Virus record (IMG/VR): IMGVR_UViG_3300027759_000192
Location: 1 to 38,693 of that record
Direction: 5' to 3' (one strand)
DNA length: 38,693 bases
DNA from: a virus
Part shown: one piece after another, positions 2,607 to 38,693 of the stretch
How positions within the stretch are numbered: position 1 is the first letter of the stretch
How the letters are laid out: each line of letters begins with the position of its first letter
Program-made: the position numbers and the translations under genes
The notes under the pieces: model-generated
The model's input: the letters and a program-made list of their open reading frames with translations, nothing else
The model's database searches: none
Told to the model about the DNA's origin: nothing

Positions 2607-2927
2607 CTACAGGTCTATTTCTAGACTGCCTGCAACTTCACTAAATGCCCAGATGACACCCTCAGCCTTACCCTCGTAAGGGTTAGCCTCAGTCGTACCT
2701 AGAGCCTTGCCGACTAGTTCTTTCACTTCATAAGTTCCCTTACGATTAGAGAACAGTCTCACTAGGTCTCCTGCTTGTGGAGTACCTGCAAAGATGATTG
2801 CGCCATAGACATCTACTGTCCTGACTTCACCTTTTTTATTAGCCTTTTCAGCCTTGCCGATTACCTTGTAACCGCCTAAGCCCTTGATTTTTGGTTCTGC
2901 CGAAGCAGTCACCTTGGATATTGCCAT
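2607..2927 (-). CDS. Hypothetical 106-aa protein of the CTAG-rich island
   Basis: I do not recognise this protein. The ATG at 2927 (MAISKVTASAEP) follows an AAAGAGAG ribosome site, so I prefer it to an upstream in-frame ATG at 3008 that falls within repeat-rich leader DNA. The chain is rich in Gly, Val, Lys and Glu with alternating hydrophobics (for example VDVYGAIIFAG near residues 38-48), suggesting a small beta-rich fold such as an OB-like or SH3-like barrel; that is inference. It is preceded by its own leader, related to the one upstream of the AAA+ operon. It may therefore be expressed in parallel with that operon rather than only by read-through. Confidence 0.8.
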   Translation of the reverse strand: MAISKVTASAEPKIKGLGGYKVIGKAEKANKKGEVRTVDVYGAIIFAGTPQAGDLVRLFSNRKGTYEVKELVGKALGTTEANPYEGKAEGVIWAFSEVAGSLEIDL

Positions 2928-2949
2928 GTAATTACTCTCTTTCTTTTGT

Positions 2950-3105
2950 TTTGTATCGGCGGACTTGCCGACACATTCCAAGTTAGCACCGATTCGTGCC
3001 GGGCGCAACTCGGCGATTCGTGCCGGTGCGAACCACCCCCCACCGACTAGGGGATAGGGTCATACGCCGTAGAGATAAGTCTTTTCGGTAACGGTAGCGG
3101 TAGGA
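2950..3105 (-). promoter_or_regulatory. Leader/regulatory element, copy B, upstream of the 106-aa gene
   Basis: The 13-mer CGATTCGTGCCGG is directly repeated at 2990-3002 and 3014-3026. GCACCG/CGGTGC (2986-2991/3024-3029) encloses both copies. CACCGATTCG, CGCAACTC and CGGTAGCGGTAG occur in that order and recur at 6828-6935 in the leader of the AAA+ operon. On the minus strand a TCGGC/GCCGA hairpin followed by an A-rich tract (near 2942-2970) leads to the gene's ribosome site. I cannot identify clear -10/-35 boxes. Shared position and motifs suggest a duplicated control region; protein operators or an RNA element are both possible. Confidence 0.5.
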
Positions 3106-3115
3106 GTATGGCAAC

Positions 3116-3222
3116 CCTATGGGCAGGCACACCGATCATATGCACCTACCCATAGGAGATAGCCACCAATTATCTACTAGCCATATGGATAAAGGCTAGA
3201 GATACTACCAATAGGGCTATTG
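3116..3222 (-). other. Three-hairpin intergenic segment between the 240-aa and 106-aa genes
   Basis: CCTATGGGCAGG at 3116-3127 pairs with CCTACCCATAGG at 3145-3156 over 12 positions. The single mismatch is C-A on plus but G-U on the minus strand. CTAGCC/GGCTAG spans 3177-3182/3194-3199, and CAATAG/CTATTG lies at about 3209-3222 with a 2-nt loop. The segment begins about 50 nt beyond the stop of the 240-aa gene. It could terminate or stabilise that transcript, or be part of the next leader. No coding frame is present in 2928-3274. Confidence 0.5.
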
Positions 3223-3274
3223 CTTTGTTCAATAGATACTTATACCTATCTCCTCTCTACTGCTAGTGGACACC

Positions 3275-3997
3275 TTAGTCCTCGTCTGACTCCATGCTTC
3301 TACGCATAGACCGTTGTATCTTTTCGGCTATAGCGTTGAGTAGTGTGTCGTAAGCCTCTCGGCTCTCTTGCTTCATCTCCATAGGCATAGCAAGGTACTT
3401 GTAAGTACCACGACATAGGTCGTACTCGTAGTCATTAGCAAAGTCTGAACGCTTAGGGTACACAGTCTTGCCGTCACTGTGCTTCTTGCGACCCCAGAAC
3501 CTAGTGACCTTATCGCCAGTGGGTAGAGTCTTGATGAAGTGGACAGTGCCCGCTGTGACCATGACCTGAAGTATGCAACCATCATGTCTAACCCTAGAGA
3601 CTAAAGACTTAGGCTCAAACCAATCGCATAACAGCACCGAAGTATCTGTATCCTGCAACATATCGAGAAAGTCCTCAGGCTCTAGACCAGACACTATAGA
3701 ACTAAGTTTCATGGTCTTAGCACCTTCCTCGTCAAGACTGCCTATGAACTGAGACATGATTGCTTTGTCTCCACTCCTAGCCCTACTCTTAGCGTCAGCG
3801 ATCTCGTCAGGATCATCTACCTCTTGTAGTCCTAGTAGCACAGTCTGAACCTCCACAGGAATGTCCTCATCAAACTGCTTGCACAGTTCACTAAAGATAT
3901 GCGTAGCCTCACTCTCTACATCATCAAGGATTTTGTCCTCAGCGTTATTGACTATGCCCTCTAGTTCTGCCATTAGTTCTTTGTCGTTGTTTTCCAT
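3275..3997 (-). CDS. Hypothetical 240-aa acidic protein of the AAA+/VWA operon
   Basis: I do not recognise this protein. It starts 4 nt after the VWA gene's stop, with GGAAGG about nine bases upstream, so it is translated from the same message. The N-terminal 75 residues are acidic and helical (ELMAELEGIVNNAEDKI). The middle (about 125-180) is beta-rich with a Trp-Gly-Arg motif (VTRFWGRKKHSDGK). The C-terminus is a basic helix followed by acidic residues. There is no signal peptide or membrane segment, so it is probably cytosolic. Its fixed place suggests a substrate, adaptor or regulator of the AAA+/VWA pair (inference). CTAG sites are frequent in the DNA, as in its neighbours. Confidence 0.85.
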   Translation of the reverse strand: MENNDKELMAELEGIVNNAEDKILDDVESEATHIFSELCKQFDEDIPVEVQTVLLGLQEVDDPDEIADAKSRARSGDKAIMSQFIGSLDEEGAKTMKLSSIVSGLEPEDFLDMLQDTDTSVLLCDWFEPKSLVSRVRHDGCILQVMVTAGTVHFIKTLPTGDKVTRFWGRKKHSDGKTVYPKRSDFANDYEYDLCRGTYKYLAMPMEMKQESREAYDTLLNAIAEKIQRSMRRSMESDED

Positions 3998-4001
3998 TGG
4001 C

Positions 4002-5324
4002 TTATGCCTTCCCTTGTAGTTGTTTTAGTTTCTGAATTGCATCATGTATATCTGGCATTACGATTATTCCGTGACGCTTTACTATGCCCTTACACTCATC
4101 TATTAGTGCTTGAGTGCTTGAGTCATGGAGTCCTGTTACCCCATAGTCAGTAACCCATACGATGGGTTGCTTGGTGCTATCCCGTAGCGTTAGTGCATAC
4201 CTAAGTGCAGGTGCATCACAGCCGTTACCCCCTGGAAATCTAGGCAAGCGTCTTACCTGCCTGTTCTTACGGGCTACGATCCAAGCGTTAGGGTTATCCT
4301 CATCAACCTTGTGACCAGTTGAGTAGCAGAGAACCGTAGCACCTGATGTGTTATCCATTAGTTGCTGTAAGTCTCTCTCTGTTAGAGACATAGAGCCTGA
4401 GCAGTCCATCACAACTACAGCACCTAATGACTTGGTCTTACGCTTGAATATCTTGCGCTCTGGGTCAGTAATCCAACGACTAATGTCGCGAATAACTACG
4501 CCCTCATCACTAGCGATATCACGCCTACCAAGTTTGCCTGTGTGATTTAGAGGTAGGTCAGGCTTAGATACATAGAGTGGATACCAACCGCCACCCTCTG
4601 CTATCTGTGCCTTACCGTTACCGTATTGCTGTGAGTCAGCACGCTTAGCCTCGCTGTTTGATTTCTTTCTAAAGGCTTCAGCACTCTCGCTTGACTGATG
4701 CATTAGGTAGTTGGCTAGGTTCTGATACCCAATCCTAGATGCTCTACGCTTACGCTGATCCCTGTCGTTGATCATAATGATCTCATTCCAACGCCAACCA
4801 GTTAGCCATGTGCCTACTACAGTCTCATTCATATCGCTCATAACACTAACCTGAGCAGGGTTAGCCACTCCTTTTAGTATCTGTTGATAAGCATCAGTGC
4901 CTATAAACGAAAACGCTTTCATAAATGATTCTTTACTAGGGTTAGGCTCATTGAGTAGAGATACCAATACGCCAGTATCTATAGTGCCATTAGTTGCATC
5001 ATCACCAAACGCTTGACCGTAAGCATGACAAGCGATAATGTTTGTTGCCGCCTCTAATGAACTCTCGGTAATCTTTACACGCTTAGCAAAGGTACTGGCT
5101 CTTGGTATTTGGAATCTAGTAAGCGTTAGAGCAAACCGTCTAAGCCTACGACTAACAACTCCATCACCAGTAGGTGCTGTGTAAGTATGTGGCTTGTTCT
5201 TACCGCCAAACTTTACAGTCACTCCGCTAATGTCCATAGGCTGACCGACTGACTCAAACCGTCTATGGTCTAGGTCAGGCCGTTGGCTCAGTGCTTCTGG
5301 TGCTAGTGAATTGTACTTACTCAT
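4002..5324 (-). CDS. VWA-domain (MIDAS) protein, partner of the AAA+ ATPase
   Basis: VWA domains bind a divalent metal through a MIDAS site and mediate protein interaction. In MoxR-, CobT- and BchD-type systems they pair with an AAA+ ATPase. Here the C-terminal ~140 residues carry the MIDAS signature DCSGSMS near residue 307 (about 4388-4410), a following GGNGCD segment and a WVTDYG aspartate near residue 391. The N-terminal ~290 residues are unrecognised and rich in Arg and polar residues. I place the start at the ATG at 5324 (MSKYNSLAP) because AGGTG lies just upstream; ATG 5330 and GTG 5333 are alternatives. It overlaps the 156-aa gene by 8 nt. Function is not readable: metal chelatase-like, protein remodelling or conflict roles are all open. 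It resembles CobT/MoxR-associated VWA proteins in layout, not in demonstrable full-length homology. Confidence 0.88.
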   Translation of the reverse strand: MSKYNSLAPEALSQRPDLDHRRFESVGQPMDISGVTVKFGGKNKPHTYTAPTGDGVVSRRLRRFALTLTRFQIPRASTFAKRVKITESSLEAATNIIACHAYGQAFGDDATNGTIDTGVLVSLLNEPNPSKESFMKAFSFIGTDAYQQILKGVANPAQVSVMSDMNETVVGTWLTGWRWNEIIMINDRDQRKRRASRIGYQNLANYLMHQSSESAEAFRKKSNSEAKRADSQQYGNGKAQIAEGGGWYPLYVSKPDLPLNHTGKLGRRDIASDEGVVIRDISRWITDPERKIFKRKTKSLGAVVVMDCSGSMSLTERDLQQLMDNTSGATVLCYSTGHKVDEDNPNAWIVARKNRQVRRLPRFPGGNGCDAPALRYALTLRDSTKQPIVWVTDYGVTGLHDSSTQALIDECKGIVKRHGIIVMPDIHDAIQKLKQLQGKA

Positions 5325-5787
5325 TGTCATCACCTACTAAGAAGTCCCAAGGCTTAGTGCTAGGGGCTCTGTTAGTTGCTTCTGTGATAGCAGTAGCAAG
5401 TGAACCGATAGCCCCACCCTCACCTACGATTGTCTCATCAGCAGTATCGCTAAAGCGCAAGACACTAACCATAGATTTCTTGTCAGCAACAACAACTAAG
5501 CGAACTCTACGCCTGTCCTTACGCTGTGATGGTGGTATATCTGAGTCATCATCATGAGGTGAAGCCCAACCTGTAGTTGCTACGCCTATGTGGCTATACA
5601 CAGTGAGTAGATCGGCTACATCAGTACCGTCTAGCAAATCGTATATGTCACCTCTCTCGTCACATAGCATTACAAGACCATCAGTATCCACGCCGTATAG
5701 GCAAGCCTTTGGCATCTCAAAGCCAAGTTTCCTTTGGTCATTGAGGTTACGCTCTATGCTCTTAGCAAAGTCCACAGTGGTAGCCAT
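5317..5787 (-). CDS. Hypothetical 156-aa protein between AAA+ and VWA genes
   Basis: I do not recognise this protein. The start ATG at 5787 overlaps the stop of the AAA+ gene as TAATG, typical of translational coupling; the longer open frame to 5850 is overlap with that gene. Visible features are a mixed alpha/beta pattern, an acidic patch (HDDDSDIPP, about residues 78-86) followed by a basic stretch (QRKDRRRVR), and a Gly-rich turn (VGEGGAIGSLATAI) near the C-terminus. No transmembrane or secretion signal is seen. Sandwiched between an AAA+ ATPase and a VWA protein, it is a candidate third component of that complex (inference from position only). Confidence 0.83.
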   Translation of the reverse strand: MATTVDFAKSIERNLNDQRKLGFEMPKACLYGVDTDGLVMLCDERGDIYDLLDGTDVADLLTVYSHIGVATTGWASPHDDDSDIPPSQRKDRRRVRLVVVADKKSMVSVLRFSDTADETIVGEGGAIGSLATAITEATNRAPSTKPWDFLVGDDNE

Positions 5788-6542
5788 TATGCTTCCACCT
5801 TTGCAAGCAGGAGAGTGTCCATCAGTGTCTCTTGGATACGAGGTAAGCACACTTGGGCAGAGTGCTGTAGGTTGCCAGTCCTGCTGTAGATTCCAGCAAA
5901 CTCTACGAAGTTTCGTAGTGAGTAGCGGTCATTACCACTACGGCTACCAAACGAGTAAGCAATCTCACGCAAGTACTCAGGTAAAGCAAGCAGACCATCA
6001 GGGTGTGGCTCGTTGATCTCTAACTGTACGACCAATCGATCACGAATAGCCCTAGTCAAGTCCTCTGGCTCACCGTTCATAGTTGCTACGACTGAGAAGT
6101 CGGGGTGCGGAGTAACGATCTCACCAGTCTGAGGGTTACGCCACCGTGAACTATGGCTAGTGTCAATCATTGACATCAGCACACCAACCATTGCGCTATT
6201 GGCTAGGTTGATTTCGTCAATGACTAAACGCCCACCAGTACGCCATGCTTCAATAGCAGGGCCTTCATGGAAGTTAGTTACTACCTGACCGTTGTCGTTA
6301 GTCTCTTGCTTCCAAGTACCTAAGATGTGATACTCGGACATTTCATCATTACAAGTCAAGCGGAATGATGGCTTGTCGTCTAGGTGGTAGTGCAAGGCGT
6401 AATAAGTTTTGCCTGTTCCTGGCGCACCATAGAGCAACACTCGCCCTAATCCGTTTGATAAAGCAAAGTCTGCTTGACTCCACTCGTTTAGTGGTTCTAA
6501 CGGCTGAGCGTTAGCAACCTGTTCTAGTATTTCTGTACTCAT
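5787..6542 (-). CDS. MoxR/CobS-like AAA+ ATPase
   Basis: ATP-driven remodelling enzyme of the AAA_5 group (MoxR, CobS, GvpN, McrB-like), usually a hexameric ring working with a VWA partner. The 251-aa chain is essentially a bare AAA+ module. Walker A GAPGTGKT is at residues 39-46, Walker B RLVIDEIN at 105-112, sensor 1 ATMN at 153-156, arginine-finger candidates R164/R167, and a sensor-2-like arginine near 210. The ATG at 6542 has GGGAG eight bases upstream. It is the first gene of the run AAA+, 156 aa, VWA, 240 aa, with overlaps or tiny gaps throughout. A ~400-nt structured leader precedes it. The family call is secure; the substrate is unknown. CobS-like ATPases are known in phages, but I do not recognise this five-gene arrangement. 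Confidence 0.93.
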   Translation of the reverse strand: MSTEILEQVANAQPLEPLNEWSQADFALSNGLGRVLLYGAPGTGKTYYALHYHLDDKPSFRLTCNDEMSEYHILGTWKQETNDNGQVVTNFHEGPAIEAWRTGGRLVIDEINLANSAMVGVLMSMIDTSHSSRWRNPQTGEIVTPHPDFSVVATMNGEPEDLTRAIRDRLVVQLEINEPHPDGLLALPEYLREIAYSFGSRSGNDRYSLRNFVEFAGIYSRTGNLQHSAQVCLPRIQETLMDTLLLAKVEA

Positions 6543-6780: not shown

Positions 6781-6942
6781 TTACTTTTTTCTTTGCCGTT
6801 CGGAACTGTCGGCGAAATCCACGATATCACCGATTCGGGGGGGTTCGCAACTCCGCCGGATCACCGCCCCCACCCCGCCGAATCGGGGAGTGGAGACGAT
6901 CCTTACGCGTGATGTCCGCAGCGGTAGCGGTAGCGGTAGCAG
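6781..6942 (-). promoter_or_regulatory. Leader/regulatory element, copy A, with 15-bp inverted repeat and GCGGTA repeats
   Basis: CCGATTCGG followed by GGGGGT (6830-6844) is inverted at 6872-6886 with one G-G mismatch over 15 positions. Between the arms is CGCAACTC. At 6919-6936 GCGGTA is repeated three times in tandem, followed by a GGTAGCTGCTACC palindrome on the minus strand that runs into the stop of the next gene. CACCGATTCG, CGCAACTC and CGGTAGCGGTAG occur in the same order as in copy B (2950-3105). A GCCG/CGGC hairpin followed by an A-rich tract also recurs. I infer a duplicated control region; the tandem GCGGTA could be iteron-like. Confidence 0.5.
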
Positions 6943-7503
6943 CTACCAAGTAAAGCAAGCGTCGATTAATGCGCTTGCAAGTTTCATATTCTTTTTGTAG
7001 ACCTGATCCTTTGGAATGCTTTCTGATTCTAATTTTCCATCCGGAAATCTACTGATGATATGCACACCTAGTGGTGTTGTCATCGTTGTGAGTTTGATTG
7101 TCACCCTGTCGTCAGCAGCGGAAGGACGTATGCCCCGGTCGACAGCGGTAGGAGATGCCCAAGCTTCCGATCGAGTAATGATCCCAATGCAGTCATCCTT
7201 CTTGCATTCGTCTATAGCTTCGTAGTCATCGGTCAGCACGTAGATGTCCGGGTATGTGGCCTTGTACATACAGCTGATTGCTGAGACTTCAGTTGTTTCA
7301 TCTGCTTCGTTCACTATGGTCAGCTCGCCCCGGTTCTTCACGTTCAAGGACAGGTACCATAGCTCGCTGTCTCCCTCGTCCATTGGATGCGCTACCTCAT
7401 GAAAGAAAACTTCCATCTTCTTGAAGTCATTCATCTCAACCTCAAAGCTTTCGGAGAATATCTTTTTGTATTCATCCTCGATAATCTTCTCTAGTTCATC
7501 CAT
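6943..7503 (-). CDS. Hypothetical 186-aa protein
   Basis: I do not recognise this protein. It is acidic in its N-terminal third (DELEKIIEDEYKKIF) and beta-rich afterwards, with a Cys-Lys-Lys-Asp-Asp-Cys motif near residues 99-104. No signal peptide or membrane helix is seen. Its start overlaps the stop of the 69-aa gene by 8 nt, so they share a transcript. It is the last gene before the structured leader of the AAA+/VWA module, and its base usage lacks the CTAG richness of that module, which helps place the island's boundary near 6.9 kb. Confidence 0.8.
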   Translation of the reverse strand: MDELEKIIEDEYKKIFSESFEVEMNDFKKMEVFFHEVAHPMDEGDSELWYLSLNVKNRGELTIVNEADETTEVSAISCMYKATYPDIYVLTDDYEAIDECKKDDCIGIITRSEAWASPTAVDRGIRPSAADDRVTIKLTTMTTPLGVHIISRFPDGKLESESIPKDQVYKKNMKLASALIDACFTW

Positions 7504-13038: not shown

Positions 13039-13229
13039 CTTTGGATACTCATGGCAGATACTTCAACACCAAGATCCTTGAGTGCGCGACAGATTGCTGC
13101 TGCGGTTATGCCGGGGTTATCCATTGCTTCCATGAAGTCTTTGTATGAATCAGGATCAAGAACATTTTTGATTTTGTCTTGAGCTGGAACATATTGTTTT
13201 GTGGATAGTACTTCCGTGAACTTGCTCAT
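13023..13229 (-). CDS. Small helix-turn-helix-like protein, 68 aa
   Basis: I choose the ATG at 13229 (MSKFTEVLS) because GGAAGGAAAA precedes it. The C-terminal half (GITAAAICRALKDLGVEVSAMSIQRWRQK region) has the spacing of a DNA-binding helix-turn-helix ending in a basic recognition helix. It is the first gene after the palindrome-rich region 13230-13500, so it could regulate that region or act with the metallophosphoesterase whose start it overlaps. Assignment as DNA-binding is by pattern only. Confidence 0.7.
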   Translation of the reverse strand: MSKFTEVLSTKQYVPAQDKIKNVLDPDSYKDFMEAMDNPGITAAAICRALKDLGVEVSAMSIQRWRQK

Positions 13230-13500
13230 TGGTTTTCCTTCCGTATGTACATGCCACCCGGGAGCCCAAGGAAGGGAATAACCAAAGCCCCCGAGTGACA
13301 AAAGAAACATTAACACACAGGTTGCAAAAGTTTGGGCAAGGGTATACCTTGTTCGAACAACAACTGGCTAGTCGCATGTGTGTGCTTCCGTCGCAGGAGG
13401 TGGGCAGTAAACAGGGGAACCTGGGTAGTCAGCCATGTCGTGTGGCTGTGCGCTGTGAATTGTTTAGGGAGTCGGACTGTGGCAACCCGACGGGGGGCAC
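13230..13500. promoter_or_regulatory. Intergenic control region with adjacent palindromes
   Basis: No convincing gene is seen. Two perfect palindromes abut: GGTATACC (13341-13348) and TTGTTCGAACAA (13349-13360), an operator-like arrangement. CAGCCA/TGGCTG (13430-13435/13443-13448) and GTCGG/CCGAC (13471-13475/13487-13491) are hairpins, the latter close behind the lysis genes and possibly part of a terminator, though no uridine run follows. The region separates the lysis cassette from the regulatory/recombination operon, so a promoter for the latter is expected here. I cannot place its -10/-35 boxes with confidence. Confidence 0.5.
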
Positions 13501-13731
13501 TCAGATCTTTCTGTTGTGATCCTCAATGTGCTTGTCCAACTTACCCTCCGTACGGATGACGGACTTGTGCATGTACTTGAGCATCCCCATCACCACGTCG
13601 TGATCTCTAGCGTTCTCTTTGCGGAACTTTTGCACAAGCATAGTTAGCAAACTAAAAGCACCAGTAACAGCAGCAGCGAGAACGACAGCGATCCCAGAAT
13701 CCACAAGGTTATGCCTTGGCCTCGAAGTCAA
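13501..13731 (-). CDS. Small membrane protein, holin-like (DUF2746-like layout)
   Basis: 76 aa with one strong transmembrane segment (about 12-32, GIAVVLAAAVTGAFSLLTML) and a charged C-terminal tail that could form a coiled coil. The layout is like the DUF2746 proteins found beside actinophage lysins, which are considered holin-associated. It overlaps the endolysin gene by 23 nt and is the last gene of the lysis cassette. Together with two other small membrane proteins upstream it may form or regulate the membrane lesion that releases the endolysin. Assignment is by topology and place. Confidence 0.75.
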   Translation of the reverse strand: MTSRPRHNLVDSGIAVVLAAAVTGAFSLLTMLVQKFRKENARDHDVVMGMLKYMHKSVIRTEGKLDKHIEDHNRKI

Positions 13732-14501: not shown

Positions 14502-14663
14502 TTAGTCTTTCTTACTGAGTGTGAGTACCGAATGCAATATCAATGTTACACCAGTAATCCATACAGCCTGTCGCAAAGTAGGGCCGGACAGGGTGATTAG
14601 AACCATGCCCGTACCAGCGTACGTCCAGGAGTTATCAGCTAGGTAATCAAAGATCTTTCTCAT
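14502..14663 (-). CDS. Small membrane protein, 53 aa
   Basis: Short frame beginning [19 protein letters not shown] with one or two membrane segments (about 15-29 and 33-48) and a basic C-terminus (LTLSKKD). Its ATG overlaps the stop of the mucin-like gene as TAATG and it ends just before the holin ATG, so it fills the gap exactly. Together with the 83-aa and 76-aa proteins it makes three small membrane proteins around one endolysin. It may be a second holin, an antiholin or a phage membrane protein of other function. Confidence 0.75.
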   Translation of the reverse strand: MRKIFDYLADNSWTYAGTGMVLITLSGPTLRQAVWITGVTLILHSVLTLSKKD

Positions 14664-16078
14664 TAACGTTTAATTCTAGTACCTGCCGCTGCGAGGGTTA
14701 TCCCTATTCCTACAGCGATGAGAGTTCGCCTTTGTCCTACTGGGATATTGGATCCAAGCGGGACATAGGTGTCAAGTGCACTCTTGAAGATGTCAATCTT
14801 GTCCTCAAAACTAGACCGCACTTCAGCCGAGGCATCCTGAACCGCAGCAATAAGTTCCTCGGTCTGCGCGTCAGTTAGCTCTGCAACATCTAATGCTTCG
14901 AAGATCTGGTCTGCCTGTTCACTGCTAATTACAGCAAGCACTTCGGGAGATGTAGCAAGTGCAACAGCCTGTGCCTGGGTTGGTTCTTCAGCAAGGATTT
15001 GATCAACCACCTGTGTGACCTGATCTGGGGTTAACTGTGCAAGAGCTTCTACAAGGGCCTCTACGGTTGTGGCCTCCTCAAGTATGGATACAACTTCTTC
15101 ATCGCTTAAGGGGGCATCTGGAAGCGTCTCAGGGGTTGTGTCAACCACCTCTGGCTCGGTAGTCTCAGGGTATGTTTCTTCTGGACTTGGCTCAGTTGTC
15201 GTGGTTGTTTCTTCGGGAGGCGTCTCCTCTTGGATGGGCTCCTCTGCTACTGTCGTTGTGGTGCCTGTCTCGGTTATCTCAGGCTCTTCAGGAACGTAAG
15301 GCTCAGTCGGTTCTGGCTCGTATATTTGGGGAGGTTCAGTAGATGTTGACGTTTCTGGCGGTAGTGTCGTGGTCGGCACTGATACTGACGATGTTGTTTG
15401 CGGTACGGAAGAAGAACTAGTTGAGCTCTCCGGTAAAACCACCGTTGTACTTGTCGTTGTAGTACTTGTCGTCGACGAGGTTGTACTGGTCGTACTTGTA
15501 GTCGTTGATGTAGACGAGGTTGAGGTTTCTGGAACTGTCGTAGTAGTCGGGACTGTGGCAGGGACAGTCGTTGGCGGAACAGTAGTAGTACTTGTTGTCG
15601 TCGACGTCGTGGATGTGGTTATAGATGCCCATAAAGATAGGTTAGCAATAGTTAGGTGACCAGGGGCACAACAGGTGTCAATCGAATACTGCCGGAACGT
15701 GAAGATGTCGCCCTCTTGGACCGATACAGACAGATCGCCTGTCGCATTGTTCTGTTGTGTAAGCAAGGTGTATGTGCCGTTTATTCCGTATTGTGGTGGG
15801 TCATACACCCAACCATCAGTTGTCTGGTACGACCAGGTGAAATCTATTGTGTCTACATCTGCGGGAATTGTGGTTTCAATCTTGACCCAATGCGCTTGAC
15901 CAGAGCAACCGTTGCCATCAGGACCATGCAAGATGATGGTGTTATCTACAACCTCAATTGAACCACCACAGTTTTGTGACTGGCTGAATGTCCAGTTGCC
16001 CAGCACATCTGCCTTAGCAGGTCTAGCGAATAGTGCAAACCCGATAGCAGGGACAAGTATCAGCCATTTGCTACGCAA
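14663..16078 (-). CDS. Membrane-anchored, mucin-like surface protein
   Basis: 471 aa, starting from a TTG at 16078 that overlaps the stop of the upstream fibre gene. Domains: signal peptide 1-23 (cleavage after AKA); a beta-sandwich-like ectodomain with paired cysteines (24-150); a Thr/Ser-rich stretch (about 150-235); a Pro/Glu/Thr-rich acidic stretch (236-320); a helical Glu/Ala/Gln segment (320-440); a C-terminal transmembrane helix (about 449-467) and a basic end (RIKR). This is the architecture of a type I surface protein, probably O-glycosylatable, rather than of a virion component. It lies between fibre and lysis genes. Possible roles are receptor masking or superinfection exclusion, a lysis-associated envelope protein, or a fibre-associated adhesin. 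The Thr-rich style resembles actinobacterial surface proteins, so host origin is plausible. Confidence 0.82.
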
Positions 16079-38296: not shown

Positions 38297-38693
38297 CTAT
38301 ATCCAACTTGGTCTCCACATCTTAGGTGGTTGCTTTAATGGACTCAACTGTGGAACGTGCAACTCGGCAAACCAGTGAGCCATGACCAAGTCGGTTCCGT
38401 TCTTTTTGTCTCTAGTCCATGAACACATCTCGTCAACGAAAGCCAATGTCTTCCAGTTTCCACGCATTGTTGGGATGCGTACCTGTCCAGATCTCCACAA
38501 TGGAGGCAGTAAAGCTTCAACACCAAGGTTCTCGTCGAACTTGTTTCGCGTTGTGGTGTGCGGAATGACGTTGATACTATGCAATGCCTGCCATTTGCGC
38601 ACGAAGTCATGAGCTAGGAGGAATCTTTGAGCAGCGTTAATTTCTACGATCCAGTGGGAGATTGGATAGCCGTATTCCCAGGACCGGTTCTGC
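38297..38693 (-). CDS. terL: Terminase large subunit, C-terminal part (runs off right edge)
   Basis: Continuation of the gene at 1-1697 across the circular join; 38550-38693 duplicates 1-144. Residues here hold the last nuclease element: LAFVDEMCSWTRDKKNGTDL with an acidic pair and basic residues, then VMAHWFAELHVPQL and the stop at 38297-38299. A 39-nt gap separates it from the next transcribed gene. Apparent ATG starts inside this fragment (38602) are internal methionines, not true starts. Confidence 0.92.
   Translation of the reverse strand, partial: QNRSWEYGYPISHWIVEINAAQRFLLAHDFVRKWQALHSINVIPHTTTRNKFDENLGVEALLPPLWRSGQVRIPTMRGNWKTLAFVDEMCSWTRDKKNGTDLVMAHWFAELHVPQLSPLKQPPKMWRPSWI
38550..38693. 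repeat. Terminal direct repeat, right copy
   Basis: Identical to 1-144 except 38567 (G versus A at position 18), a synonymous difference within the terminase gene. See the left copy. Trimming one copy yields a 38,549-bp circle in which the terminase frame is intact. Confidence 0.95.

Follow-up and report, generated by a model that had tools for sequence, protein, structure and literature searches.

The question raised by IMG/VR virus record IMGVR_UViG_3300027759_000192 (positions 1 to 38,693; the window below means this whole stretch of 38,693 nucleotides) is why a small phage encodes an AAA+ ATPase and a VWA protein side by side, accompanied by acidic proteins of no known family, and what such a set would act upon. 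The genes very probably encode a machine of the AAA+/VWA remodelling class, and the set is an accessory cassette, exchanged as a block. The features of the locus, in coding order, are as follows.

6943 to 7503, minus strand: p186, acidic partner of the p186/p156/p240 family, by hhalign to p240 and p156.
5787 to 6542, minus strand: AAA+ ATPase of 251 amino acids, MoxR class, NorQ/CbbQ-like, by Pfam AAA_5 (E 2e-18) and profile matches.
5317 to 5787, minus strand: p156, acidic partner and optional member with GWA(S/A)P and PSxHxxRR motifs, by hhalign to p186; AlphaFold model with a predicted local distance difference test score (pLDDT) of 83.
4002 to 5327, minus strand: VWA protein of 441 amino acids, basic, with the metal ion-dependent adhesion site (MIDAS) motif DxSGSM (D308, S310, S312); phrog_33218, E 1e-146.
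3275 to 3997, minus strand: p240, the most constant acidic partner, directly after VWA, by hhalign to p186; AlphaFold pLDDT 90.
2607 to 2927, minus strand: p106, a conserved neighbour outside the cassette.

An earlier note on this DNA had drawn a set of five genes, from AAA+ to p106, and the five open reading frames (ORFs) are all on the minus strand where it had placed them. Its single message for AAA+, p156, VWA and p240 also stands: the AAA+ and p156 genes share the TAATG at their junction, the end of p156 runs into the start of VWA, and 4 nucleotides separate VWA from p240, so that one translationally coupled message is the natural reading of the sequence. The gene set itself had to be redrawn. 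Starting 348 nucleotides after p240, p106 is rejected as a member because it is found, beside WhiB, in six of the 11 related genomes that have neither AAA+ nor VWA; meanwhile p186, located 400 nucleotides before AAA+ in coding-strand order and upstream of it in most of the 38-kb relatives, had been left out, although it is homologous to p156 and p240. Another candidate, p127, was also rejected. A 24-nucleotide imperfect repeat (window 3085-3108 and 6915-6938) occurs in both long leaders, that of p106 and that of AAA+, near GC-rich stretches; it is possibly a shared regulatory signal.

The comparison was made with metagenome-derived contigs. In all loci that have both genes (105 of 105), VWA is a neighbour of AAA+, comes after it and has the same direction; the synteny, whose loss was looked for, is kept in relatives, and the idea of an AAA+/VWA machine with unknown partners in synteny comes out stronger than it had been put. 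In order that loci were not chosen by the module itself, the portal protein was taken as the query, and the 24 near-complete contigs longer than 35.7 kb among the best 80 of its 486 relatives formed the comparison set. AAA+ is present in 13 of these 24 contigs and VWA in the identical 13, both being absent from the same 11, whose portals are at least 70% identical. As for p240, it is found in 10 of the 13 module-bearing genomes and in none (0/11) of the module-less ones, the unmatched bearers being contigs of L113, L116 and L117, where the downstream proteins are divergent. Such co-occurrence counts are not independent of phylogeny, which is corrected in part by the portal tree, where module presence needs five changes, at least four of them forced by well-supported branches. 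Absences were called by profiles, with each ORF of the island intervals searched in addition. The interval between whiB and the terminase is unbroken in 10 of the 11 module-less genomes and contains other cargo, including ArdA antirestriction genes in three of the 11 and C5 cytosine methylases in four. Phages isolated on Planktophila are also known to differ by an 8-kb island, one of them having an ArdA-like gene (PMC10202952). In L224, L225, L226, L233, L234 and L235, the same interval contains families of proteins of about 205-280 amino acids that are, by eye, sliding-clamp-like; two of them were scanned, with no Pfam match.

This inheritance bears on the possibility of a virion-assembly chaperone, in which the pair would fold or assemble a structural protein, like p618/p892 of the Acidianus two-tailed virus (ATV), with p240, p186 and p156 as assembly adaptors. 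ATV, a viral precedent, made it the explanation considered at the start; it has also been proposed for jumbo phages (PMC4124505, PMC7824862), and in the 38-kb family the cassette immediately precedes terminase and portal. However, 11 of the 24 relatives with such similar portals lack the cassette and, in L050, L053, L056, L057 and L130, the terminase (and the portal where seen) is on the strand opposite to AAA+-VWA. Virion assembly was lowered by this portal-based presence and absence and by the tree, and is now considered quite unlikely; among the roles offered previously, the remodelling of a host complex or a conflict function fits better. Almost the whole gene complement of the 38-kb family is on a single strand, and this is uninformative about timing. 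The genes after VWA include a phosphoesterase and a Rad52-like annealing protein in L057, and a Cas4-like exonuclease and an ERF annealing protein in L130; together with the opposite orientation of terminase and portal, these neighbours suggest that AAA+/VWA is on the early, DNA-metabolism side in two divergent lineages. A scan for terminases in the larger phages with Pfam PF03237 gave no match and is uninformative on terminase position. The larger phage lineage of L109, also with AAA+/VWA, encodes an HslV-family peptidase (L109:17961-18605, minus strand; phrog_1040, E 2e-22), which could be a protease partner of the predicted AAA+ ring.

Regarding the ATPase, Walker A, Walker B and sensor 1 are all kept in 109 of 110 AAA+ relatives, and R169 and R210 are invariant in 26 aligned relatives, their arginine finger and sensor 2 roles being assigned by position only. 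The protein had been named MoxR/CobS-like: the MoxR-class motifs and the AAA_5 match uphold the first half of that name, while the CobS label is loose, as the best PHROG is the phage ATPase family phrog_16448 (E 4e-52) and the profile of its relatives, compared with solved structures, places midasin first, followed by NorQ and CbbQ. This also concerns the idea that the set matures a metalloenzyme or acts as a chelatase, as CobS/CobT or NorQ/NorD do. The nearness of NorQ and a match to a 'porphyrin biosynthesis' PHROG (E 2e-20) speak for it, but the latter is more than 100 bits below the phage ATPase family, and no linked chelatase subunit or metalloenzyme gene was seen in the part of the ORFs that was scanned. 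The CobS and CobT family models stayed below their cut-offs, and CobN large subunits were not found among the genome proteins scanned, again part of the ORFs. Metalloenzyme or chelatase maturation is then very unlikely.

A further possibility is phage-borne defence or superinfection exclusion, where the set would be a MoxR-vWA conflict system directed against competing phages and the acidic proteins would be its sensors or effectors. Its accessory, all-or-none inheritance suits such a role, and cellular MoxR-vWA ternary systems have been proposed as conflict systems (PMC7159879); on the other hand, no VMAP-like or recognisable effector domain was found, the bpMoxR model reaches 17.9 bits on AAA+, below its cut-off of 27, and with the PADLOC defence models there is no full-length match, the matches to IetA being only of P-loop size (best E 3e-4). 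This role is regarded as unlikely.

The VWA protein of the window has no Pfam model above the cut-off, and phrog_33218 is a PHROG without function; among its relatives, the commonest Pfam match is VWA_CoxE (5/26, best E 3e-4). The DxSGSM motif is conserved in 97 of 97 full-length VWAs which, together with the AAA+ motifs kept in 109 of 110 relatives, indicates that the module genes are under selection. D394 is invariant, as is D371, near the place of the canonical MIDAS threonine. One scan of viral contigs gave 187 VWA relatives, and the scan of cellular genomes gave one contig among the matches listed, L131 (PBTE01000009.1), from a Planctomycetaceae metagenome-assembled genome, with no VWA in 148 other genomes of the same phylum. 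As far as these searches reach, the AAA+/VWA lineage looks mainly or wholly viral. With the AAA+/VWA pair and a WhiB match on its 14.9 kb, contig L131 may be viral DNA that was binned wrongly. Using tblastn, VWA, p240, a marine VWA, a p156-type protein and the portal matched nothing in 50,697 phage records, a collection that may lack close records, nor did the p156-type protein match any plasmid.

The partners had been described as unknown proteins, which remains true with respect to known families (Pfam, PHROGs, NCBIfam and PADLOC gave nothing of note for the p156-, p186- and p240-type proteins) but not with respect to one another. An iterative hidden Markov model first merged p156, p186 and p240 and, because of possible profile drift, the relationship was retested with profiles built from separate alignments and compared by hhalign, and with independent folds. 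p186 matches p240 over 208 columns (99.4%, E 1.6e-21) and p156 over 100 columns (97.9%, E 5e-13). The models of p156 and p240 have a common topology (helix, strand, strand, two helices, four strands, helix), p240 having an additional helix between the first two strands and another at the end. Judging from profiles and predicted folds, the three proteins form one family, being diverged copies of one domain. Foldseek searches with the p156 and p240 models gave nothing in the PDB at E<=1e-3, while in BFVD the p240 model found two viral proteins without a name, so homologues of it have already been deposited. The divergent proteins after VWA in L045, L046, L116, L117 and L119 match p186 (94.5%) and p156 (91%). 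In larger phages, the p156 motif GWA(S/A)P...PSxHxxRRRVRL recurs away from AAA+/VWA, sometimes on the other strand. In L235, a genome without AAA+/VWA, a p156-type GWAAP/PSQHPERR protein (L235:13891-14334, E 3e-32) comes directly after an ArdA gene (13095-13694).

These partners are acidic, with a median net charge of -22 for p186, -17.5 for p240 and -11 for p156, and VWA is basic (+15). In the marine lineage (L049-L063), where VWA is equally basic, an unrelated acidic gene of 170-180 amino acids abuts AAA+, so the pairing of a basic VWA and an acidic partner is seen again; a relationship of this marine gene to p186, p156 and p240 was not supported.

As for the setting, the ends of the window overlap (1-144 and 38550-38693, 144 bp, 99.3% identity) and the terminase gene runs across the joined ends; the genome is therefore a complete circle of about 38.5 kb. 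It encodes WhiB, which indicates an actinobacterial host, and the host is probably a freshwater actinobacterium; Planktophila has yielded isolates of 39-kb whiB phages of freshwater Nanopelagicales (PMC10202952). The earlier note had seen no recognisable replication enzymes, which is correct for polymerase, helicase and primase among the genome proteins scanned, but a RecE-like exonuclease and a phosphoesterase-type nuclease are present. Rfam and tRNA scans gave no match. A 471-amino-acid protein kept in relatives (window 14663-16078, minus strand), with a signal-like start, a long Thr/Glu-rich linker and a hydrophobic end, resembles a phage protein that is secreted or anchored at the surface.

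The mode of action can be proposed from NorQ/NorD: there, a VWA-domain finger enters the pore of a hexameric ring, the VWA protein is moved by the hydrolysis of ATP, and acidic residues on the client are the proposed ligands of the MIDAS metal (PMC9976466, PMC13036017). By analogy, the phage AAA+ would form an ATP-driven ring, and VWA would dock in it and convert hydrolysis into a pull or twist, with its MIDAS metal gripping an acidic residue of the client. The role of p240, p186 and p156 would be that of dedicated adaptors (or of pseudo-clients): they would choose the target and attach to the basic VWA by way of their acidic surfaces and tails. The set would be expressed with the early or middle DNA-metabolism genes and would act on a host complex, its likeliest use being to disable or rewire host machinery, including defence, in counter-defence or takeover. 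A host target seems more likely than virion assembly, since the structural genes do not change between phages that have the cassette and phages that lack it, and since relatives carry anti-restriction genes at its site. The chances appear about even that the set is a virus-specific remodeller of the MoxR class (NorQ/CbbQ-like), with dedicated acidic adaptors, acting on host machinery. More tentative, and rather doubtful at present, is its narrower form in counter-defence, whereby AAA+/VWA with acidic GWxP/PSxHxxR adaptors would pull apart host defence or restriction complexes and be swapped with ArdA and methylase genes in aquatic actinophages.

Several observations weigh against the proposal of a host-directed remodeller with dedicated adaptors. 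The canonical MIDAS threonine of VWA is not conserved, and p156 and p240 gave no match when their profiles were compared directly. A p156-type protein occurs alone in one genome (L235), and the larger and marine lineages are without p240/p186, so the acidic partners are not indispensable to AAA+/VWA. In addition, the site shared with ArdA is an accessory island and not evidence of a common function.

Pairs of viral MoxR and VWA proteins are already known, in ATV, jumbo phages, haloviruses and phage 0305phi8-36, and no description of the whole set was found. The CGN-type MoxR pairs NorQ/NorD and CbbQ/CbbO also have a single-domain AAA+ beside a VWA protein with an N-terminal region, and include the nearest solved AAA+ apart from midasin; in contrast to them, the phage set is viral, its VWA has no Pfam match above the cut-off, no enzyme client is linked and its acidic partners are paralogous. 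In ATV, a viral MoxR AAA+ (p618) has a VWA partner (p892) that stimulates it (PMC4124505), but p618 forms part of the virion and takes part in tail growth, whereas phages that share a portal can do without the cassette, which is not linked to late genes. Group 2.2 jumbo phages have a MoxR/vWA pair (PMC7824862), although their vWA is fused to a metallopeptidase and no acidic partner family is described there. The haloviruses Hardycor1 and HVTV-1 and the Bacillus phage 0305phi8-36 carry AAA+ and VWA genes adjacent or nearby, outside the assembly region (PMC7911831, PMC2147016), but these proteins are much larger (711 amino acids for the Hardycor1 VWA) and no comparable partners are described. 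The ternary conflict systems (VMAP, iSTAND, bpMoxR) likewise join MoxR and vWA with a third component (PMC7159879); they are cellular, and their third component and effectors were not found in the phage set with Pfam, no iSTAND-specific search having been made. The CobS-like ATPases of cyanophages are also phage AAA+ of MoxR/CobS type, but distant (23-27% identity, best among the matches listed). What is new, then, is the paralogous family of acidic partners, the all-or-none exchange at an anti-restriction island and the argument from layout against virion assembly.

Phages with the same portal, with and without the cassette, offer a natural comparison, and experimental tests may be feasible given the isolated Nanopelagicales phages (PMC10202952). 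The cassette takes up about a tenth of the 38.5-kb genome and recurs in many uncultured viral contigs, and its partner family is without a solved fold. The counter-defence and takeover proteins known so far from small phages seem mostly to work through binding or mimicry; a remodeller driven by energy and serving counter-defence or takeover would, if true, be unusual in a small phage.

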